From Hippopus hippopus (taxonomy: Eukaryota > Mollusca > Bivalvia > Cardiida > Cardiidae): 64,000 bases of DNA. Below are positions 4,906-62,760 of this stretch, one piece after another (the stretch's first letter is position 1; the number at the start of each line of letters is the position of its first letter). The notes beneath the pieces were generated by a model, which saw nothing but the letters and a program-made list of their open reading frames with translations, searched no databases and was not told the DNA's origin. The position numbers were made by a program, and so were the translations under genes. The DNA is taken from the NCBI GenBank assembly GCA_946811185.2, contig OX328102.1, forward strand, positions 16,927,194 to 16,991,193, given 5' to 3'.

Positions 4906-5146
4906 TGAGCCACGCTCTGGCGAAAGGGGGCTCATTGCACTTCCATGATGCATGACACCAGCCCAAGTCATCACATAATTATGGATATATAATAGACACT
5001 TTTTTAAACATCCGACTTAATCATGTGGTAGACTGGTCCTTTGACATACAGAAAATTGACCAATAGCGGAAAGTTTCGGCCCTGGCTGACCTGGGTCAAT
5101 ACTTTTTGCAGATGTGTTTAGCCCCCTTTTTACAGAGCATGGCTCA
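4906..5146 (-). mobile_element. Family C MITE, core-deleted
   Basis: Begins TGAGCCACGCTCTGGCGAAA and ends CAGAGCATGGCTCA, with TA outside both ends (4904-4905, 5147-5148). One arm of the GC-rich core is missing. It sits five bases from MITE L. Confidence 0.85.
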
Positions 5147-8357: not shown

Positions 8358-8712
8358 ATGCTTTCCGGTAGGTTATCGATTAATATCGGTGAAATATTTT
8401 TCGATATGTCATGGTTACGACCAGTGAAAGATACCGCTTTTTATACTCTAACTCTTCAATTGAATTTACACTACATTTCTCACGCTTGACGTAATATCGT
8501 AATACGTTGCTATGCGGAGGGGGTACGCCACGGGGAATAACCGAAAAGAACTGTTCTGGATTTTGATGTAAGTTCCTCCCAAAAAGGCTTAAAAGCATGA
8601 AGTAAATAGAATTTTTTTTTTCGGTGAAAGATCGAAATTTATTTCATCTCGTATAAAAAAAATTATTACTCGATGAAATAAATTTCGATCTTTCACCCAA
8701 AAAAAATATCCA
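8351..8712 (+). mobile_element. Element E copy 1 with terminal hairpin
   Basis: Begins TTATTTCATGCTTTCCGGTA. A partial inverted copy of that motif (AAAAGCATGAAGTAAATAGA) lies near 8592. The element ends in a hairpin whose arms are GTGAAAGATCGAAATTTATT and its complement, ending CACCCAAAAAAAA. Two more copies are at 34.36 and 41.15 kb. No transposase is seen. The superfamily is undetermined. Confidence 0.75.
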
Positions 8713-10712: not shown

Positions 10713-10927
10713 TTAACCCTTAGGCTGCCGCTTAGCTCAACTCACTGACCTTTTGCGGACAGTGAAGATCAAGATCAGACTGCACAGAACGTGCAGTCTG
10801 ATCTTGGATCTACACTGCCCGATATGGAGAAATCTTAACTCAGAAAATACCATTGAAATAGCAAAATTTAGGTTTATACTGTCGGTTTGAAAATTTCATT
10901 TCACTTATTTAACAGAATAAGGGTTAA
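10713..10927 (+). mobile_element. TTAA-A MITE, complete
   Basis: The left end is TTAACCCTTAGGCTGCCGCT and the right end is AACAGAATAAGGGTTAA. The hairpin at 10756-10821 has both arms intact and the bulge on the right arm (ATCTTGGATC). It is one of the clearest copies of the forward consensus. Confidence 0.93.
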
Positions 10928-13511: not shown

Positions 13512-14990
13512 GTTTTCAGCTCACCTGGGCACAAAGTGCTCAAGGTGAGCTTTCGGGATCGAGCTGTGTCCGGCGTGCAGCGTGCGTCGGCCATGAGTCA
13601 GCAATGACCTTGCGTGCACTCTAGAATCCACATTTTCAGTCCAATACTCATGAAAATTAATACGATTGTTTATCTTGATATCTCGGACGAGTTTGAAATT
13701 GGGTCATGTCGAGTCAAAAAGTAGGTCACTGGGTCAAATCATCAAAGAAATGAAAAAGAAAAAAACTTGTGTGCACTCTAGATTCCACATTTTTGGTCCA
13801 ATACTTATGGAAATTATTAAGAATATTAGTCTTGATGGTATCTCGAACATGCTTGATATTGGGTCTCATCGGATCAAAGAGTAGGTCACTACACAAATTT
13901 CAGAATAACCTTGTGTGCACATATTTTCTTGACATATTTTCTGTCTGATACTCATGAAGCCTATCCAGAATGTTTGTCTTGATAATATCTGGGACAAGTT
14001 TGAAATTGGGTCACACTGGGTCAAGAAGTACATCACTGAAATCAACCTTAGAAAAAAAAACTTGTGTGCACTCTAGGACCCACATATCAGTCCAATACTC
14101 ATGAAATCTGGTCAGAATGTTTTTCTTAATAGTATCTTGGACAACTTCAAGATATGGTCACATAGGATGAAGAAGTAGGTCACCGGGACAATTCTCGGAA
14201 AACCCTTGTGTGCACTCTGGAGGCCACATTTTCTGTCCAATACTCATGAAAATTAGTCAGAATGTGTGTCTTGATATCAGGGACAAGTTTGAAATTAGTT
14301 CACTGAGGACCAAAAGGAGGTCATCGGGACAAATGTTAGAAAAACCTTGCCTGCATTCTCGAGGCCACATTTTCTGTCCGATACTCATGAACATTGGTTT
14401 GGATGTTTGTCTTGATGATATCGTTGGCAAGTTCGAAATTTTACATGCCGTATTAATAAACAGATATAGGGACAAATCTTAGAAGAAACCTTGTGTGCAC
14501 TTTACAGGCCACATTTTTAGTCAAATACTCATGCAAAATTATCAGAATGTTTGTCTTAATGATATCTCGGACAAGTTTGAAATTAAGTCACGTCGGGTGA
14601 AAAAAACAGATCACTGGGACAAATCTCATTAAAACTTGTGTGCGCTCTAGATTCCACATTTTTGGTCTAATACATATACTTAATATGAAAATTGTTCAGG
14701 ATAGTCTCGGTAGTATCTCAGACAGATTTGAAATTGGGTTACGTTTGGTAAAAAAAAAAATAGGTCACAAGAACAAATTCTTAAAAAAAAACACACACTT
14801 TGCACTTTGCATTTTGTGCACTTTAAAGGTCTCATTTTCAGTCTGATACTCATGAAAATTCTTCAGAATGTTTGTCTTGGTGGTATCTCAGGCATGTTTG
14901 AAAATGGGTCACACTGGGGTGAAAAGTATGTCACTTAGACTAATCTTTTCAGTCAAATTCTCATGAAAGTTGGGTGCTGCACTCATGTAA
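13512..14990 (+). mobile_element. Stem-loop plus ~144-bp tandem array (Helitron/Helentron-like non-autonomous element?)
   Basis: A stem-loop opens the element, with arms CTCACC and GGTGAG around GGGCACAAAGTGCTCAA. After a GC-rich segment, about nine diverged units follow, each CTTGTGTGCACTCTAG, CACATTTT, AATACTCATGAAAATT, AGAATGTTTGTCTTGAT, TATCTCGGACAAGTTTGAAAT, GGGTCA. Unit starts near 13609, 13766, 13910, 14061, 14205, 14346, 14490 and 14635 give 141-157 bp periods. The unit is not a consistent multiple of three and the frames across it are not genes. Tandem cores behind a conserved leader are known from molluscan non-autonomous elements such as the pearl group. That assignment is a suggestion only. 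Confidence 0.65.
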
Positions 14991-17609: not shown

Positions 17610-18980
17610 TTTTACAGTGAGCTACATTAGTCAGTGAACCTCCCTGATATTTAGTACCACATTAAATGACACCTTCTTATCTTTACAGTACAATAGTAAA
17701 AGAAGCCTCTTGATCTTTACAGTACAACATTTAATGAAGCTTCCTGATCTTTATAGTATCACATTTAATGAAGCTTCTTGATCCGCGCAGTACAATATTC
17801 TTTTAAGCTTCATGATCTTAATAGTATCACATCCAGCGAAGCTTCTTGATCTCTACATTACCGCATGTAATGAAGCTTCTTGATCTTTACAGTACCAAAT
17901 TTAATGAAGCTTCTAGATCTTTACAGTATTGAATTCAACGAAGCTTCTTGATCTTTACAGTACCACATTTAATGAAACTTTTTTATCTTTACAGTCCAAA
18001 GTTTAATGAAGCTTCTAGATCTTTACAGTATTGAATTCAACGAAGCTTCTTGAGCAATATAGTACCACATGTTATGAAGCTATTTGATCTTTACAGTACC
18101 ACATTTAATGAAGCTTCTAGATCTTTACAGTGTTACATTTAATGAAGCTTCTTGAGCAATATAGTACCACATGTTATGAAGCTATTTGATCTTTACAGTA
18201 CCACATTTAATGAAGCTTCTAGATCTTTACAGTATTAAATTCAATGAAGCTTCTTGATCAATACAGTACCACATTTAATGAAACTTCTTGATCTTTACAG
18301 TACCACATTTAATGAAGCTTCTAGATCTTTACAGTATTAAATTCAATGAAGCTTCTGGATCATTACAGTACCACATTTAATGAAGCTTTTTGATCTTTAC
18401 CGCACTTAATGAAGCTATTTGATCTTCACAGTTTTACATTTGATGAAGCTTCTTGATCTTTACAGTACCATAATTAATGAAGCTTCTTGATCTTTACAGT
18501 ATTATTTTTTAATGAAGCTTCTTGATCTTTACAGTTTTACATTTGATGAAGCTTCTTGGTCTTTAAAGTACCATAGTGAATGAAGCCCCATCATCAACAC
18601 AGTGCCACATTTAATGAAGTGTCATTATCTTTACCGTATCACAGTAAATGAAGTTTCTTCATCTATACAGTACCGTATTTAACAAAAGTTGTTTTTTTTT
18701 ATCTTTGCATTACCACATTAAATGAAGCCATTTGATCTCTTTACAGAACTATATTTATTGAAGCACCAGGATCTAAAAATTCCACACTAAATAAAGCTTA
18801 TTGATCTTAACAATACCTCTCTTAAATCAGCTTCTTGATCTTAGCAAAACCACATTTAATGAAAGTTACTCGTCTATACAGATATACAATCAAAGCAACT
18901 TTTTCATCTTCAAAGTACAACATTTAGTGATTTTTTTTTAATTTTCATAGTATCTCATTCAATTCAGCTTCTTAATCTTA
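17610..18980 (+). repeat. 34-bp satellite array, left block
   Basis: Tandem units of consensus GATCTTTACAGTACCACATT + TAATGAAGCTTCTT (34 bp). Central units are most alike and edges are degraded. A higher-order period of 102 bp (3 x 34) shows at 18052 and 18154, where a variant starting GAGCAATATAGTACCACATG recurs with the same two following variants. As 34 is not a multiple of three, the array does not encode a protein repeat. Confidence 0.95.
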
Positions 18981-19294
18981 ACGCCAAGCCCCAGAAGCAT
19001 GGTCGGTAGCGTCCAGAACCTGAGACCAGGGGATCGCTGGTTCGAATTCTCAGTTCGGCCAAATACTTTCCGAGGATTGATCATAGTAATTGCGACATGA
19101 TTTATTCCTCTCTCATTGCTGATCATTGTTTTGAAGATGGTTATGTGGGAAATCAGCCAGTGGCTTGGGAGTATATTTTGCGAAGAACTGGTAAAAGGAA
19201 GTCCAGGAAGGCATGGATAGGTGCACTGACCGCCCTGATAAAACTGTCATATTGTTGAAAATGGCGTTGAACACAATACAATCAATACAATCAC
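18981..19294 (+). mobile_element. SINE S1 inserted in the satellite
   Basis: A degraded tRNA-like head (GGTCGGTAGCGTCC, then GGTTCGAATTCTC as B box) is followed by the S1 body (TTCCGAGGATTGATCATAGT, GGAAATCAGCCAGTGGCTTG) and a tail of ACAATACAATCAATACAATC. Flanks resemble CTTAATCT and CTTAATTCT, a probable target duplication within satellite sequence. It cleanly divides the two satellite blocks. Confidence 0.85.
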
Positions 19295-20139
19295 CTTAAT
19301 TCTCACAGTACCCTTTTAAATGAAACTTCTTGATCTTAAATACAATGCCTCATTTGATGAAGCTTCATTATCCTAAATACAACACCTTATTTAATAAAAC
19401 TTTTTTGATCTTTACAGTACCTCATCCATTGAAGCTTCTAAATCTTTACCGTACCATACTTGTTGTGGCTGCTTGGTCTTTACAATACATTGAATGAAAC
19501 TTTTTTTATCTTTACAGTACTACACTTAATGAATCTTCTTGATGTATTGATCTTTACAGTACTACACTTAATGAAGCTTCTTGATCTTTCCGGTACATCA
19601 CCTAATGAAGCTTCTTGATCTTTACAGTACCGCATTTAAATCTTTACAGTAGTAACATAACAACATTTAATGAAGCTTCTTCATCCTTATAGAAGCAAAT
19701 TTAATGAAGTTTCTTGATCTTTACAATGCCTCATTAGATAAAGTTTCTTGAGATTACAGTGCCAATTCGATGAAGCGTCTTGACCTTTACAGTACCTCAT
19801 TTGATGTAGAAGCTTCTTGATCTTTACAGTACTACATTTCACGAAGCGTCTTGATCTTTACAGTACTACATTGAATGAAGCTTCTTGATCTTTACGGGAC
19901 CATATTCTATGAAGATTACTAATCTTAAGATTACTGCATTTAACGACTATTAGAGTATTTGCATTTTATGAAGTTTCCTGATCTTTACAGTACCAAACTG
20001 TGGGAAGATTACTGATCTTCACAGTAACACATTTGATGAAGCCTCTGAACTTTATAGTACCTCATTTAATGAAACCTCTTGATCTTAACCATACCACACT
20101 TAATGAGACTTTGCAATCTTTATTATACCACATTTCATG
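19295..20139 (+). repeat. 34-bp satellite array, right block
   Basis: Same unit and orientation as the left block, continuing after the SINE. Units become more diverged towards 20139. The two blocks together hold about 65 units by length. Confidence 0.93.
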
Positions 20140-20880
20140 GGACGGACATCTTTAGACAGGAACAAAGTCCCAGATATTGCAATTTCGAAGCGACTTTGGC
20201 CAAATTATCACACAATAAATCATGATATCTTCTTGCGTAATTCCGAGATCTGTTTCACTTTTTTTGTGCAGCCTGATCCTGATTTGAAACGTGTACATAA
20301 GCATCTAAGGCCGACGAGACCCTCTAAAGACTCATACTACAAGTCCAGATTAAACGAAACGGACATTTCCTGACAATATAAAGGCTTCAGCCAGTGACCT
20401 CAGAGCTTTCACACCAAAAGGGGGTGTGACCTGAATACATGGCTGGGCTAAACTTCTTTTCGAGAAATCCTGATTGTTATAGCAACGGAATCCATCCCTC
20501 TCTCACTGCTTAATAGCTTGTTTTAAGGTTCAATTTGCTATTTCTGTGTGTGATATACCGTCTATAGACAAAACATTGCCTACAGCGATTGGACAATCTT
20601 GAATGAAACGACAGTAATTTCCGATTTGCAGCAATCCCTAGAAGGTAACGCTGCGTTACAATCGTTTTCCCATGGAGATTCTAAATACCTTATTTCATGT
20701 TGGAATCGTAAGCTCCCCTTTCTATACGTTTACCCCAGAGATGTTCCGTACCAAATTACTTACTTCTGCCTTCTTAGGAATTTTCTTTGCGAAATAATTA
20801 CAGCTCCAAAACATGGCCAAAAGCCCGTCAACCCTGTATGAAACAATTCCGTGTTTACCGCCATAATGGAAGAAGACTTT
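20140..20880. other. Unassigned stretch
   Basis: No repeat family was recognised. Frames at 20137-20373 and 20599-20841 are 78-80 codons, without motif, and are not supported. Confidence 0.4.
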
Positions 20881-20883
20881 TGT

Positions 20884-21046
20884 AAGCATTGTTGAAAAAG
20901 GAGAAAATGCTGGTAACCAGCATTTTCTCCATTTCCCACAATGTTTTCTACCCTTTCAGAGGTCTTCAGTTCATTTTTACCAATCACGAATTTGTCATCT
21001 TCAGATGCTTGCAACCTTGAAGAGTCTAAAATTTGTCGTTTGTTAA
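20884..21046 (+). mobile_element. TTAA-B MITE
   Basis: The palindrome is at 20884-20948 (AGCATTGTTGAAAAAGGAGA ... CCCACAATGTTTTC). The right flank GAGTCTAAAATTTGTCGTTT ends on TTAA at 21043-21046, which also begins the next element. The left end is not clear. Confidence 0.85.
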
Positions 21047-21257
21047 CTCATTTCCTACTGAATAAGTTAAATAAAACCTCAAAACCGATAGAACAAAAAA
21101 CCGAATAATGCAATTTCAAACGTATTTTTTTTGAAGAAAACAATCTCCCAATCGGACAGTGTAGATCTAAGATCAGACTGCACGTTCTGTGCAGTCTGAT
21201 CTTGATCTGCACTGTTCGCAAAAGGTCAGTGAGTCGGGCTTAGCAGCCTAAGGGTTA
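21043..21257 (-). mobile_element. TTAA-A MITE abutting TTAA-B
   Basis: TTAACTCATTTCCTACTGAA starts on the TTAA that closes the B copy. The hairpin at 21153-21219 has near-complete arms and a bulged base. The right end is AGCAGCCTAAGGGTTAT. Confidence 0.9.
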
Positions 21258-22452: not shown

Positions 22453-22681
22453 TTAACCCTTTACCAAACAATCCCTGGTTTTAACGACCCCGATGAAGAA
22501 GCCTTCTGAAAACATTGTGGGAAAAGGAGAAAATGCTGGTAACCAGCATTTTCTCCTTTTCCCACAATGTTTTCTTCTCTTTCAAAGTCAAGTTTCAATT
22601 TTTGAGTCGCGTTTATTTTGTTGTCTGCAAATGCTTTCAATTTGAACTTGTCTAAAATTTTGTTGTTTGGTAAAGAGTTAA
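22453..22681 (+). mobile_element. TTAA-B MITE, reference-quality copy
   Basis: 229 bp from TTAACCCTTTACCAAACAAT to TTTGGTAAAGAGTTAA. The palindrome at 22508-22574 is perfect: two 33-base arms around one A at 22541. The right flank carries TTTGTTGTCTGCAAATGCTT. Terminal CCCTTTACC pairs with GGTAAAGAG, so the ends are short inverted repeats next to TTAA. No coding sequence. Confidence 0.95.
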
Positions 22682-34226: not shown

Positions 34227-35460
34227 CCTGTTATACTCTTGTGGTATACTCGTGGCGTTAAGTATCCTAATTCCCACTGGAAAAGTTGGAACACTGTAAG
34301 TTATACTCTCTTTATGAGATGTATAATCACTCTTTTAAACTCGATGTTGTAATTATAATATCACCTTTTATTTCATGCTTTCCGGTAGGATATCGAGAAA
34401 TAGCGGTGGAAATATTTTTCGATATTCCACGGGTACGACCAGTGAAAATACCGATTTTTATATTCTAGTTACCTAGGTAAAATGCGCGTGACTCACAACC
34501 AGATGGAAATATGAAGTCATTTACCTTACATTTCTCGCGCTTGACGTAATATTGTAATGCGTTGCTATGGGGAGGGTGTACGCCACGGGGAATAACTGAA
34601 AAGACTGTACTGGATTTTGATAAAGTTCCTCTCAGAAAGGGTTAAAAGCATGAAATAAATAGAATATTTGTTTTTTTGGGTGAAAGATCGAAATTTATTT
34701 CATCTCGTGAACACCATCGGTAATATTTTCACTCGTGGCTGCGCCACTCGTGAAAATATTACCGATGATGTTCACTCGATGAAATAAATATCGATCTTTC
34801 ACCCAAAAAAAAACAAATATCCTTTATGTGTTTTAGTATCTATCTAACGATCAAGTCTTCCCTCAACCCCCATCCCCAAATAAAAGGGAGTGGGGAGCAC
34901 ATACTATATTTTATGGGCTTTTTGTCATATCCCGTTGGAATATTTGGCAAACTTCAAATCATGGGATTTATATATGATAACTATGTCAAACTCGCTGATA
35001 TTGTTACAATTTTTCCTTGATAATTTAGCATTTAAATAAAGATCTCGCATTGTAGACCCTCTCTTCCCAACCTCAACGCCAACCCTATCCCCACACATCA
35101 CCCATAAAAAGAAATTTCAAGGGTACTTTTGTCACACCCCGCTGGAACAGTTTTCATACTAGTACTGTACATTTTACTATCAGTATGGAATTTACAGTCA
35201 TTTTCAATGATCTGTTATAGTTATGGTTTTCCTCACATGCCTTAGCATCTATGTAAAGATTACGACTCAATAATCCAAAATTAGGGCTGTCACTTACAAT
35301 GCGATTTCTCTTATCTCACTAGAATACTTGGCACACTGTAAGTTATACTACAATTATGGGATTTACATCGCTCTTTCAATCTCAACGTTAGAATTATGGG
35401 TTTCCCTTAATGCATTAGCATCAGTATAAAGATCGCGCATCATATGCCACCGTTCTAGGC
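34227..35460 (+). repeat. Tandem repeat, about four units of ~200 bp (family M), carrying element E2
   Basis: Shared landmarks are CCCRYTGGAA, TTGGCACACTGTAAGTTATA, ATTATGGGATTTACATCGCT, TTAGCATCTATGTAAAGATC. They appear near 34270-34360 (unit interrupted by E2, resuming at 34813), 34920-35060, 35130-35270 and 35310-35450. No coding frame persists between units. Confidence 0.7.
34361..34812 (+). mobile_element. Element E copy 2, full length with long terminal hairpin
   Basis: Begins TTTTATTTCATGCTTTCCGG, with the inverted motif AAAAGCATGAAATAAATAGA near 34646. The end is a 125-bp hairpin at 34678-34804: arms GGTGAAAGATCGAAATTTAT... and GATGAAATAAATATCGATCT... close on CTCGTGGCTGCGCCACTCGT. 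CCTTTTAT before and CCTTTAT after may be an imperfect target duplication. No frame of note. Confidence 0.8.
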
Positions 35461-36157: not shown

Positions 36158-36385
36158 TTAACTCTTTACCAAACAATCCCTGGTTTTTACGGGTCAGGAA
36201 TAGAAGCCTTATGAAAACATTGTGGGAAAAGGAGAAAATGCTGGTTACCAGCATTTTCTCCTTTTCCCACAATGTTTTCTACCCTATCTTATAGAAAAAT
36301 CATCTTTTTAGCAACTGTTAATTTGTCATCTGCAAAATGCTTTCAATTTGGTCTGGTCCAAAATTTGCCGTTTGGGAAAGGGTTA
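36158..36385 (+). mobile_element. TTAA-B MITE, complete, with inverted centre
   Basis: 228 bp from TTAACTCTTTACCAAACAAT to CCGTTTGGGAAAGGGTTAA. The palindrome at 36213-36279 is perfect, but its central base is T where the same-oriented copy at 22453 has A. Confidence 0.95.
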
Positions 36386-36572
36386 AGTTTTCATACCAAC
36401 CAAACGGTCTTAATGTTCTTTTTTATTCAGTTGAAGCTTCAAGGGTTAATCTTTGTGCGTTTTACTTGTAAGGCTCTTGTAGATAACATAACGTTTCCTG
36501 TTATTATTTATAACAATTCTCTGACTATCATATTACCTGATAAATCAATTTTCCTGCCGTTCTAATTCGACG

Positions 36573-37958: not shown

Positions 37959-38024
37959 CGGACGGCATAGATCAAGATCAGACTGCACAGAACGTGCAGT
38001 CTGATCTTGGATCTATACCGTCCG
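37959..38024 (+). mobile_element. TTAA-A variant A' hairpin
   Basis: GCGGACGGCATAGATCAAGA and ATCTTGGATCTATACCGTCC. Both arms carry the matched change GGCATAG/CTATACC against standard GTGTAG/CTACAC. It shares right-flank motifs (CGTCCGCTTGT, TTTTCAGCCGTCG) with 50764-50829. Confidence 0.85.
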
Positions 38025-50187: not shown

Positions 50188-50451
50188 TGAGCCGTGCTCT
50201 GGCTAAAGGGGACTTAATGCATCTCCGTCATGCATAATACCAAGCAGGTCATCACATAATGATGGACCCATGAAGTCCTTTTTTTCCGAACAATGGACTG
50301 GATCTGGAGGTAGAATGGTCCTTTGCCTTGCAGAAAATTGACCAGTGGCAAAAAGTTTTGACCCATGCCAGCCTGCGCGGACTGCGCAGGCTGACATGGG
50401 TCGATACTTTTTGCAAAAGCATTAAGCCCCCTTTTCACAGAGCATGCCTCA
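50188..50451 (-). mobile_element. Family C MITE, full length
   Basis: TGAGCCGTGCTCTGGCTAAA to CACAGAGCATGCCTCA. The core palindrome CCAGCCTGCGCGGACTGCGC AGGCTGACATGGG is intact. Two overlapping minus frames here are artefacts. Confidence 0.9.
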
Positions 50452-50763
50452 TTTACATGTAGGCCTAGTAATGTAATAATACCTGTAGTCAGAGTCTCGG
50501 TACTGATTTAGGCAATATAATACATTTACTTCGGAACATATTTCACAGTTTCAGAGGGCTAGCAGATATCTACTGTACCATTTTTAAGAGAAGGTGGCAA
50601 GAAGAAATTACTGCTTGTTTTTCAAGAGTCCGGCGGCTTTAAGATGAAGAAAGTCGTCATACAGGGAAAAAGTATTAATCATGTCAGACATAAGCATAGT
50701 ATTTGGATATCTTATAAGGTCTTCAGCGCTTTCAGCTCAATAGACAAACCTTGTAGCTTTTGC

Positions 50764-50829
50764 AGACGGCATAGATCAAGATCAGACTGCACAGAACGTG
50801 CAGTCTGATCTTGGATCTATACCGTCCGC
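50764..50829 (+). mobile_element. TTAA-A variant A' hairpin
   Basis: GCAGACGGCATAGATCAAGA and GGATCTATACCGTCCGCTTG, arms complete with the usual bulge. Same variant as 37959-38024. Confidence 0.85.
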
Positions 50830-53263: not shown

Positions 53264-53330
53264 GTAAACTACTAGTATGGGATTTCACTGTTGCCTTGAA
53301 ATCCTTCGTTTAGTTTGTTTGGCTTGCAAC

Positions 53331-53581
53331 ACGCGAAAAGGGGCATTTGGACATTTGCGTAAAGTGTCGTCTCGGATCAGCCTGCGCAGTCCGCGCAGGC
53401 TAATCCGAGACGGCACTTTACGACTACATTAGATTTTGTTCTTCAGTAGACTTGCGCAAAACAGAAAATTACATAAAAACGGAAAGTGCCGTCTCTGATT
53501 AGTATGCGCGGACTGCGCAGTCCGATCCGAGACGACACTTTACGCAAATGTCCGAATGCCCCTTTTCGTGTGTTGCAGGCC
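53331..53581 (+). mobile_element. Family D MITE, full length
   Basis: GGCTTGCAACACGCGAAAAG to CTTTTCGTGTGTTGCAGGC. It contains two internal hairpins in mirror arrangement, each with GTGTCGTCTCGGAT-type arms and a GCCTGCGCAGTCCGCGCAGG core. Confidence 0.9.
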
Positions 53582-53598
53582 ATTTAGCAGCTTAAAGA

Positions 53599-54814: not shown

Positions 54815-55103
54815 ATGGAATCTATAAGTTTAATGCCGTTTTCAACAATATTTCAGTTATATGGCGGAGGCCAGTACACCTATCCAAGCATTCCTGGAGT
54901 TTCTGTAACCAGTGCTTCGCACAATATTCTTCTCAAGCCACTGGCTGCTTTCTCATATAACAATCGTTGAAACAATGATCAGCATTGAGAGAGGAATGAA
55001 TCATGATTAATCCTCGAAAGGAAATGGCCGAGCTTTGGATTCGAGCCGGTGACCTCCTCTTATCAATTCCTGTAAGCTACTGACAGCGCAACCGGGGCTT
55101 GAC
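54815..55103 (-). mobile_element. SINE S1
   Basis: AATGCCGTTTTCAACAATAT through CCACTGGCTGCTTTCTCATA to a head at the right, GAGCCGGTGACCTCC and AGCTACTGACAGCGCAACCG. The head is worn and is the source of the tandem repeat next door. Confidence 0.82.
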
Positions 55104-55345
55104 ACATGTAGGTATAAATAAGACAAGTAACTAAAAAGGGCTAGCCGATGACCTCATCAATTCCTGTAAGCTACTGACAGCGCAACCTGGGCTTGACACA
55201 TGTAGGTATAAATAAGACAAGTAACTAAAAGGGGATAGCCGATGACCTCATCAATTCCTGTAAGCTACTGACAGCGCAACTGGGGCTTGACACATGTAGG
55301 TATACATAAGACAAGTAACTAAAAAGCGCTAGCCAATGACCTCAA
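55049..55345 (+). repeat. 94-bp tandem repeat made from a SINE head and its flank
   Basis: TCAATTCCTGTAAGCTACTG starts at 55063, 55157 and 55251, a period of exactly 94. Each unit holds the A-box part of the SINE head (GACAGCGCAACCGGGGCTT) and then flank (GACACATGTAGGTATAAATA AGACAAGTAAC). Units differ at only a few bases, so amplification is recent. Confidence 0.92.
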
Positions 55346-55450
55346 TTCAATTCCGCTGTGTTAAGACTGATTTCTTTTCGTTTGATTTTATTGGCTACAT
55401 GAAGTCTCGATCGAAAGCTGCTAACTGTATCAAATGATAAAGCTCCATGT

Positions 55451-55711
55451 GGCCTGCAACACGCGAAAAGGGGCATTCGGACATTTGCGTAAAGTGTCGT
55501 CTCGGATCAGCCTGCGCAGTCCGCGCAGGCTAATCCGAGACGGCACTTCACGACTACATTAAATTTTGTGCTACAGTAGACTTGCGCAAAACAGAAAATT
55601 ACATAAAAACGGAAAGTGTCGTCTCGGATTAGCCTGCGCGGATTGTGCAGGCTGATCCGAAACGACACTTTACGCAAATGTCCGAATGCCCTTTTTCGCG
55701 TGTTGCTTGCC
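55451..55711 (+). mobile_element. Family D MITE, full length
   Basis: GGCCTGCAACACGCGAAAAG to TTTTTCGCGTGTTGCTTGCC, with both internal hairpins. Very close to 53331-53581. Confidence 0.92.
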
Positions 55712-55762
55712 AGATTATAATTTCGACTTTAAAATTCTGTTCCTCGGCAAGTTTCATCGCAT

Positions 55763-57061: not shown

Positions 57062-57236
57062 TCATATTTACAAAGCACTCTAAATTGCATTCTTGGTCTA
57101 ATTCTCTCGAATTATAGCAATTTGGAGAGTAACACAATTTCTGATTGGCTAAACCAAATGGTTTAGCCAATCAGAAAATGCGTTACTTTCCAAATTCAGA
57201 ATTACACGAAGAAAGCGATTTAAAGAAGTTGGTGTG
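57062..57236. mobile_element. Family G palindromic MITE
   Basis: The central palindrome GATTGGCTAAACCAAATGGT (57147 onwards) is perfect over about 33 bases, with CATTCTTGGTCTAATTCTC on the left. The right end is worn. Confidence 0.78.
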
Positions 57237-58510: not shown

Positions 58511-58721
58511 TTAACCCTTAGGCTGCTAAGCGCGACTCACTGACCTTTTTCGGACAGTGTAGATCAAGATCAGACTGCACAGAACGTGCAGTCTGATCTT
58601 GGATCTACACTGTCCGATAAGGAGATATTATTCCCCAAACATAACTTTGAAATAGCAATATTTGGATTTTTAATATCGAATTGAAAATTATATTCTAGTT
58701 GTTTAGCTGGATAAGGGTTAA
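58511..58721 (+). mobile_element. TTAA-A MITE, reference-quality copy
   Basis: 211 bp from TTAACCCTTAGGCTGCTAAG to TTTAGCTGGATAAGGGTTAA. The hairpin at 58551-58616 has complete arms, loop AGAAC and one unpaired G in ATCTTGGATC. The flank TAAGGAGATAT and TAATATCGAATTGAAA are typical. No frame of interest. Confidence 0.95.
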
Positions 58722-61173: not shown

Positions 61174-61590
61174 ATTATCCTACTAAATAAGTGAAAGGAA
61201 ACTTTTAACCTTTTGGCTGCTAATCGTGACTCATTGACCTTTTGCGAACAGTGTAGATCAAGATCAGACTGCACAAAACGTGCAGTCTGATCTTTGATTT
61301 ACACTGTCCGATACGGCAGTTTCTTTCCGGTGAAATCAACTTTGAAATCGTAATGTTTGGGTTTGTACTGTTGAGACGAAACTTTCTTTTCATTTATTTA
61401 GCAGTTTAAGGGTTCAACCGATAGTAAAAACATAAATTTTACTATTTTAAAGATATCTTTTGGGGAAAAAAATATGTCCTTATCGGACAGTGTAGATCCA
61501 AGATCAGACTGCACGTTCTGTGCAGTCTGATCTTGATCTACACTGTCCGCAAAAGGTCCTTGAGTCGCGCTTAGCAGCCTGAGTCTTACT
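61174..61590 (-). mobile_element. TTAA-A MITE split by a second TTAA-A
   Basis: TTATCCTACTAAATAAGTGA AAGGAAACTT runs to 61204, then the inner element intervenes, then CAACCGATAGTAAAAACATA follows from about 61415. The hairpin is at 61483-61549. The join reconstitutes the family order at AAACTTTCAA. Confidence 0.88.
61205..61416 (+). mobile_element. TTAA-A MITE inserted inside another TTAA-A
   Basis: TTAACCTTTTGGCTGCTAAT to TTTAGCAGTTTAAGGGTTCA, with the hairpin at 61245-61310. Opposite orientation to its host. The flanking tetramers TTAA and TTCA point to a TTCA/TTAA-like target within the host. Confidence 0.9.
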
Positions 61591-62486: not shown

Positions 62487-62760
62487 GTGTTATGCAGTAA
62501 AATTACAGTTATAGAATGCAGCAAAAAAACTGGATTGAAATCCAGTAAAATTACAGTTATAGAATGCAGCAAAAAACTGGATTGTTGTGCAGTAAAATTG
62601 CAGTAATAGACTGCAGCAAAAAACTGGATTGTTATGCAGTAAAATTACAATTATAGAATGCAGCAAAAAAAAAATGGATTGTTATGCAGTAAAATTACAG
62701 TTATAGAATGCAGCAAAAAAAAAAACCTGGATTGTTTAATTTTAATTTTACTGCATAACA
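62487..62760. mobile_element. 47-bp tandem array bounded by 18-bp inverted repeats
   Basis: TGTTATGCAGTAAAATTA at 62487-62504 is exactly inverted at 62743-62760. Between lie five units beginning GCAGTAAAATTACAGTTATA at about 62493, 62542, 62589, 62636 and 62686 (47-50 bp), each ending in an A-run and CTGGATTG. It may be a small MITE with internal repeats. Confidence 0.8.

Follow-up and report, generated by a model that had tools for sequence, protein, structure and literature searches.

The 64,000-nucleotide stretch of the Hippopus hippopus genome analysed here (hereafter the window) is crowded with two families of short elements flanked by TTAA, A and B, each of which carries a long palindrome. 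This arrangement raises the question of which transposase moves such elements and what the palindrome contributes to their spread, a question that bears on how some MITEs come to number in the hundreds of thousands when their parents remain rare. The reading developed below, to which a probability of roughly 0.54 is attached, is that A and B are piggyBac-moved TTAA MITEs in which the palindrome is a putative cis-acting amplification site.

Identity and abundance of families A and B

Both families have the properties of MITEs: they are short (<600 bp), non-coding and homogeneous in length, possess TIRs and occur at high copy number. Their consensus lengths, ~212 bp for A and ~229 bp for B, agree with the ~210-230 bp given in a preliminary description made from the sequence alone. 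The boundaries proposed there, with TTAA at start and end, were confirmed for A copies 10713-10927 and 58511-58721 and for B copy 22453-22681; a further B copy placed at 36158-36385 begins as described, but its true end is one base later (Table 1). Using full-copy profiles in an iterated search (E<=0.01), 97 A and 85 B raw matches were obtained in the window, many representing one palindrome matched in both orientations. Merging reduced these to 58 loci of A and 45 of B, whose union covers 23.5% of the window, the earlier estimate having been ~40 traces of each family and about a quarter of the sequence; an order-3 Markov copy of the window gave 0 matches to the A and B profiles.

Across the genome (1,068,471,763 bases in 34 contigs), a first look yielded 6012 A and 3935 B candidates. 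In 20 stretches of 10 kb beyond the window, placed at hand-picked round coordinates on contigs C1-C18, coverage was 3.4% for A (standard error 0.65), 16.5% for B (2.2) and 19.9% for their union, and the reversed sequences of the same stretches had 0% A or B coverage. These 200 kb contain 17 near-full A and 103 near-full B copies, extrapolating arithmetically to genome totals of roughly 90,000 and 550,000, respectively; in total, ~0.35 Mb of the genome was read. Palindromic modules (A-type together with those of B) mark 24.7% of the sampled DNA. The density of A in the window (11.7%) is ~3.4 times that found across the 20 stretches (3.4%).

The two families are unrelated to each other in sequence, in agreement with the preliminary view of their interiors: the A-B palindrome alignment score of 5 was equalled or beaten by 1928 of 2000 shuffled palindromes, and, with the terminal 11 bases removed, 922 of 1000 shuffles were as good for the right linkers and 760 of 1000 for the left. 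Two search patterns had 0 matches in viral contigs; among contigs of prokaryotes, a single stretch (Novosphingobium) matched, which is attributed to chance. In the protein database, open frames across the two families matched 28 (A) and 228 (B) predicted proteins, with none named among the 28 and 120 listed.

Table 1. Coordinates of elements and palindromes of families A, B, C, E and H in the window
Feature	Position	Strand	Remarks
Family A MITE	10713..10927	+	near-complete, TTAA at both ends
Palindrome of A copy 10713..10927	10756..10821		43 bp from left end
Family A MITE	58511..58721	+	near-complete, TTAA at both ends; palindrome about 58551-58616
Family A MITE	61205..61414	+	nested inside another A copy
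Family A MITE	21043..21257	-	abuts B copy (20830-21046) at a common TTAA
Family B MITE	22453..22681	+	inserted in a copy of repeat H
Palindrome of B copy 22453..22681	22508..22574		67 bp, 33 pairs
Family B MITE	36158..36386	+	TTAA at both ends
Palindrome of B copy 36158..36386	36213..36279		67 bp, 33 pairs
Family C palindrome	37959..38023	+	both arms changed relative to A
Family C palindrome	50763..50827	+	assigned by sequence and C profile match
Family E element	53320..53582		2-bp duplication, two palindromes
Family E element	55450..55712
Family H element	50188..50451		consensus palindrome 39 bp from one end
Family H element	4906..5146

Insertion at TTAA

The flanks of 144 usable copies were joined and searched against the sequences read, with six of the 144 queries coming from loci that repeat the same DNA. 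Candidate paralogous empty sites were obtained from 13 of the 144. Nine of these 13 have TTAA at the junction in at least one place and four have none; among the nine, one is positive only because the matched place is another B end, and three others have a single TTAA place of 9, 29 and 32. The B copy at 22453-22681 interrupts repeat H, where the junction reads TTAA in 9 of 13 aligned empty places; the corresponding figures are 7 of 12 for an A copy at the same site of H in another locus (L017) and 6 of 10 for a B copy also within H (L028). For the nested A copy at 61205-61414, the junction is TCAA in 22 of 32 uninterrupted places and TTAA in one, and for a B copy nested in another B (L014:3780-4003) TTGA is the commonest of 102 places (33), with TTAA in seven; in such nested insertions, the TTAA that served as target differs by one base from the sequence that most copies have at this place.

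Ends of near-full copies were also inspected, leaving out loci that repeat the same DNA (L001, L037 and L038). Within an 18-nt window around the end, TTAA is present at the left in 27, at the right in 23 and at both ends in 16 of 38 A copies, and in 58, 64 and 38 of 98 B copies, respectively, against a background of 0.110 per random 18-mer. A and B insert at TTAA and duplicate it; the preliminary proposal of a TTAA target, put to paralogous empty sites, stands for both families, each having TTAA at the junction.

Probable assignment to the piggyBac superfamily

TIRs of piggyBac type have been defined as 12-19 bp long with the terminal motif CC[C/T]T (PMC2872659). The TIRs of A and B extend over ~15 bp, 13 of 15 positions agreeing in each family, and begin CCCTTA at both ends of A and CCCTTT and CTCTTT at the two ends of B. 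Both families thus share the TTAA duplication and the 12-19 bp TIR length of the superfamily, and the terminal motif is represented by CCCT at both ends of A and, in B, by CCCT at the left and CTCT at the right, the right end being one base off.

In the genome, 119 matches to PF13843 are listed (116 of 199 candidates scored), more than 20 of them with stop-free open frames of ~450-600 codons; none of the 119 lies inside the window, consistent with the earlier remark that it holds no transposase. Twenty piggyBac loci were inspected (eight whole, two as extra copies of one, and 10 at both flanks), the search for flank ends being limited to those starting CC, CT, TC or AC. Wherever the ends of a piggyBac gene could be fixed, they were of the TTAA-CCC type. 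Two-ended TTAA-CCC TIRs were found at L033, L034, L035 and L092/L093, with types CCCATATA, CCCTTTATATAC and CCCTWGTCATGC, and three more flank pairs have the left end TTAA-CCCTTTAKATACG. A or B ends bracket the gene at none of the 20 loci, where ends were fixable in only a minority, and the A and B pieces near piggyBac genes are whole MITEs or fragments.

One piggyBac gene (L031, with a 491-residue frame) had ends resembling those of B and was considered as a parent of B. It was rejected, as the B profile shows whole B MITEs adjoining the gene, and these are also present in two more copies of the segment. The segment itself (>2.6 kb) is 99.6-99.96% identical on three contigs (L031, L037 and L038) and, with the B MITEs it contains, represents either a large duplication of recent date or a long element. 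Named matches in a protein search with the piggyBac transposases include Dreissena, Saccostrea, Mya, the tubeworm Ridgeia and fishes. A partial piggyBac transposase (P0007) that shares 63% identity with that of L030 carries the label of a Candidatus Thiodiazotropha MAG and perhaps derives from animal DNA binned with a symbiont.

With CCC...GGG ends, TIRs and resident piggyBacs bearing TTAA-CCC ends, the piggyBac-type nature of A and B is well supported, and the preliminary piggyBac-like assignment is further strengthened by the TTAA empty sites. Mobilization by a transposase from Kolobok or Sola3, both of which also target TTAA, is improbable. Kolobok elements are known in molluscs (PMC9587614, PMC10294476), but their termini are reported as 5'-RR...YY-3' next to a TTAA target (PMC9587614), whereas A and B end in CCC...GGG.

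Conservation of the palindrome among source copies

The palindrome comprises 30 paired positions, a 5-nt loop and one unpaired base in A, and 33 pairs around one base in B. It lies near the left end, its edge being 40 (A) and 55 (B) bases from the nearer end of the consensus and 106 (A and its relative C) and 107 (B) bases from the other. Each arm of the B palindrome at 22508-22574 contains TGTGGGAA, which resembles a CSL/Su(H) site, and variant palindromes, such as that at 2133-2226, are without it.

Palindrome arms are closer to the consensus than the flanks are, at 0.944 versus 0.816 in A (45 of 45 full copies) and 0.895 versus 0.782 in B (112 of 114), and the difference persists when CG, TG and CA sites are left out. 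Within a young subset of A, pairwise divergence is 0.157 outside the palindrome versus 0.042 in it. In the matching B comparison, the left boundary lay 8 bases too far out, so that a little flanking DNA entered the figure for the remainder of the element. A ten-base profile of the youngest third is biased in favour of the palindrome, since the copies in it are chosen by how little their palindromes diverge; the slopes and intercepts given next are unaffected by either point.

Age and source-level divergence were separated by ranking copies on one arm, measuring age on the other and estimating an instrumental-variable slope of flank divergence. A lower mutation rate in the palindrome would predict intercepts of zero and slopes close to the ratio of mean divergences, 3.48 in A and 2.18 in B. 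The slope obtained for A was 1.02 (bootstrap interval 0.74-1.32) and that for B 0.74 (0.56-0.96); the flank intercepts were 0.135 and 0.152, that is, 13.5-15.2% divergence already at insertion, the palindrome's own source-level divergence being zero by construction of the test. Without outliers, the values were 0.96 (0.52-2.03) and 0.139 for A (2 of 45 copies removed) and 0.74 (0.55-0.97) and 0.152 for B (3 of 114). As the B interval lies below 1, saturation or misalignment of old flanks may have inflated the B intercept. By region, intercepts were 0.101 (A) and 0.073 (B) for the TIRs, 0.077 and 0.155 for the left linker, and 0.156 and 0.163 for the right linker, with a slope of 1.64 (1.06-3.10) for the A left linker. 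In B, conservation falls clearly from the palindrome through the TIR to the linkers; in A, TIR and left linker are conserved to about the same degree.

These slopes, together with the nonzero flank intercepts, indicate that the palindrome is conserved among source copies, above the TIRs. Divergence data thus support a history in which insertions age roughly evenly and the spreading copies differ in their linkers, hardly in their palindromes. This behaviour of the palindrome, source-level conservation with even ageing, is the new element of this analysis.

Recurrence of the A palindrome in families C, E and H

While A and B were confirmed as families, the two-family picture of the preliminary description had missed a sister of A and the recurrence of its palindrome in elements of another kind, as well as the palindrome's standing as the part best conserved among sources. 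The sister family, C, likewise has TTAA ends and agrees with A at 19 of 29 positions in the left linker (0 of 1000 shuffles as good) and 43 of 95 in the right (4 of 1000). Its palindrome is changed in both arms, ACAGTGTAG being replaced by ACGGCATAG with the partner arm. Families E and H show 2-bp duplications: flanking dinucleotides are equal in 7 of 10 E and 13 of 20 H copies, with TA..TA in six and eight, respectively. A candidate further family, D, joins a B-like palindrome to other flanks and has three long members.

Among palindrome pairs picked for scoring after their clustering had been seen, every alignment exceeded its shuffled maximum (0 of 2000 each): A-E 24 and A-H 23 versus 18, C-E 20 versus 17, C-H 24 versus 22, and E-H 39 versus 27. 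Judged by these alignments, the A palindrome is homologous to those of the 2-bp-duplication families E and H. Over the first 40 bases, A or C and E or H match at 11-13 positions. The palindrome edge lies 39 bases from the element end in C and H and 40 and 43 bases in E, which has two palindromes; these spacings, like those given above for A and B, were noticed after the fact.

A, C, E and H share a palindrome core and differ by paired changes. Covariation was scored on 27 palindromes (26 distinct), hand-picked for preservation from 74 core matches, in which 92.9% of cells are paired. Doubly changed cells numbered 110 versus 39.5 +- 5.4 expected (0 of 500), the cells counting sequences rather than events and the paired changes mostly separating family groups. 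The covariation score was 0.396 versus 0.176 (0 of 500), and pairs changed on both sides were 15 of 29 versus 12.3 expected (18 of 500). Further pair types showed no excess in this set (32 versus 33.2 expected; 444 of 500), and slid structures gave at most 13 doubly changed cells.

Pairing of the arms within and between copies

Arms of the same copy resemble each other: mismatch is 0.158 in A versus a mean of 0.188, and 0.199 in B versus 0.215, in both cases below all 300 random pairings, and an early small set had given p values of 0.035 (A) and 0.004 (B). Complementary double changes were counted 48 times in A versus 14.7 in column shuffles (maximum 25 of 300) and 79 times in B versus 40.0 (maximum 59), the A set of 90 including C-like and weak copies and the shuffles ignoring relatedness. 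When the own arm was compared to that of the neighbour nearest by flank, mismatch was 0.109 versus 0.089 in A (59 pairs) and 0.192 versus 0.155 in B (168 pairs). Arm-to-arm correction within single copies was judged unlikely by this nearest-neighbour test, and the likeness of arms within copies and the excess of paired changes are taken as differences between subfamilies. Since own arms are no closer than those of the flank-nearest neighbour despite the excess of paired changes, pairing is kept as source lineages change, not through repair in single copies.

Other features of the window

Tandem repeats with a diverged unit of ~34 bp (AGTACCACATTTAATGAAGCTTCTTGATCTTTAC and related sequences) occur in stretches over ~2.4 kb at 17653-20106, and further tandem arrays lie at 13760-14673 (147-bp unit), 55062-55354 (94) and 62488-62721 (47/97). 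A tRNA-Thr (TGT) is found at 760-832 by ARAGORN and Rfam. The palindromic repeat at 57119-57196 (also in L009, L011 and L013; a cluster of seven in 264 kb) has arms containing TGATTGGCT...AGCCAATCA, two inverted putative CCAAT-box-like sites. Another family of long palindromes (34680-34802 and 8614-8706, also in L019 and L021; five in 264 kb) contains GTGAAAGATCGAAATTTATTTCATC in its arms.

Proposed role of the palindrome

In the mechanism proposed here, A and B are non-autonomous elements of the cut-and-paste type. Their insertion at TTAA is shown by the paralogous sites, and they are most probably moved in trans by host piggyBac-superfamily transposases. The long palindrome near the left end would serve as a putative two-fold symmetric cis-acting site needed for amplification, most probably bound by a dimeric protein, either a transposase DNA-binding domain or a host factor. 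Copies losing the palindrome would stop spreading, and an inserted copy would be neutral, its palindrome then ageing about like the rest. Such a dimer site fits the conservation seen among source copies, the even ageing after insertion, a symmetry that survives sequence change and a position near one end. There are precedents for parts of this scheme: each monomer of the piggyBac transposase contributes one of the two cysteine-rich domains that bind the piggyBac palindrome (PMC11707139), the transposition of MITEs can be enhanced by internal sequences (cited in PMC2872659), and longer ends restricted the excision of rice Stowaway elements (cited in PMC11707139).

Several observations weigh against this reading. 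None of the 20 piggyBac loci, at which most ends were unfixed, proved to be a parent carrying the TIR of A or B, and the palindromes are ~66 bp long versus 19 bp in piggyBac. One palindrome type also occurs in the 2-bp-duplication families E and H, which argues that in families A, C, E and H, at any rate, the putative binding protein may be a host factor. Paired changes within A and B, which a structural role would predict too, count against a pure sequence site and show that complementarity of the arms also matters. Constraint on the sequence as well as the symmetry is supported by the letters conserved among sources and by the core that A, C, E and H have in common despite their paired changes.

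The main alternative to a dimeric-protein site is that the palindrome acts as a hairpin or cruciform, as DNA structure or hairpin RNA, in which complementarity is what counts. Consensus RNAs folding at -54.0 and -53.2 kcal/mol and paired changes both between families and within A and B agree with it; however, the column shuffles behind the within-family excess ignore relatedness, the A set contains C-like copies, pairing is kept between lineages only, and pure complementarity does not require the letters that sources conserve, so that this role is regarded as unlikely. Nearly the same standing, slightly lower, is given to the view that these are ordinary piggyBac-type MITEs whose palindrome is a passive founder relic, conserved by the accident of few sources. 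MITEs do form a considerable share of bivalve genomes (PMC10294476), 9.23% of one assembly (PMC9803972), and ageing after insertion looks neutral, but an accident would have had to produce, twice and in families without relationship, flanks with 13.5-15.2% source-level divergence beside palindromes with none, and young subsets show the same contrast. A purely mutational origin, in which gene conversion or template switching homogenizes the arms, or the palindromes of different copies, and no function is required, is very improbable: it would account for within-copy arms closer than all random pairings and for the paired-change excess, but not for arms that are no closer than those of the flank-nearest neighbour, nor for palindrome and flank ageing at similar rates.

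A broader form of the preferred reading, in which a putative cis-acting site favours amplification, is that the ~66-bp palindrome is a portable amplification module in MITEs of different transposon superfamilies, a tentative suggestion drawn from an edge 39-40 bases from an element end in A, C, E and H (43 for E's second palindrome), a symmetry kept through paired changes, and the quarter of the sampled DNA that the module marks together with the independent palindrome of B. If true, MITE bursts would be licensed by a host factor common to these families as well as by the transposase, and if the palindrome is a host-factor site in unrelated transposons, it would be the point at which bursts that built a fifth to a quarter of a genome are controlled. 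In either form, natural copies separate what must be kept (palindrome first, TIR second) from what drifts freely (most linkers), and point to a candidate cis element.

Comparison with known systems

No earlier description of these palindromic families was found in the full-text literature searched, a body that leaves most subscription journals and Repbase/Dfam outside. A bivalve survey reports a considerable MITE share, with the MITEs left without further classification (PMC10294476), and the 9.23% figure cited above refers to MITEs in the Manila clam assembly (PMC9803972).

The closest precedent is the CMITE families of Acropora corals, TTAA MITEs whose TIRs differ between families and whose core, better conserved than these TIRs, was proposed to have a role in transposition (PMC2872659). 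Shared features are TTAA duplications, CCC-type TIRs, lack of coding capacity, piggyBac genes in the genome, and several families with different TIRs whose internal region is more conserved between families, a comparison that here covers the A, C, E and H palindromes only; an internal region more conserved than the TIRs is also found within families A and B. CMITEs are ~100 bp long (PMC2872659) versus 212 and 229 bp for A and B, and their core folds into short hairpins only, whereas that of A and B is a ~66-bp palindrome. The 60-nt CMITE core (PMC2872659) had no match at E<=10 in the window or in L001-L038. Unlike in the coral work, conservation is here separated from age, the palindrome recurs in non-TTAA families, and two families amount to ~20% of the sampled DNA.

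Kolobok resembles A and B in its TTAA duplication and presence in molluscs and differs in its RR...YY ends (PMC9587614). The piggyBac and piggyBat systems share the TTAA target, and piggyBac has an internal palindrome bound by two transposase monomers; that palindrome is 19 bp long and present at both ends (PMC11707139), in contrast to ~66 bp near one end in A and B. A MER6 MITE with a SINE V domain likewise has a conserved module found across transposon classes (PMC6887750). The V domain is not described as a palindrome in the abstract of that paper, whereas the module here is palindromic and occurs in both TTAA and 2-bp-duplication MITEs. Finally, the pearl-family MITEs of bivalves are similar in having internal modules, one of them with a conserved palindrome near a repeat junction, but carry satellite-like tandem repeats (PMC5139131), and the A and B consensuses are without such repeats.
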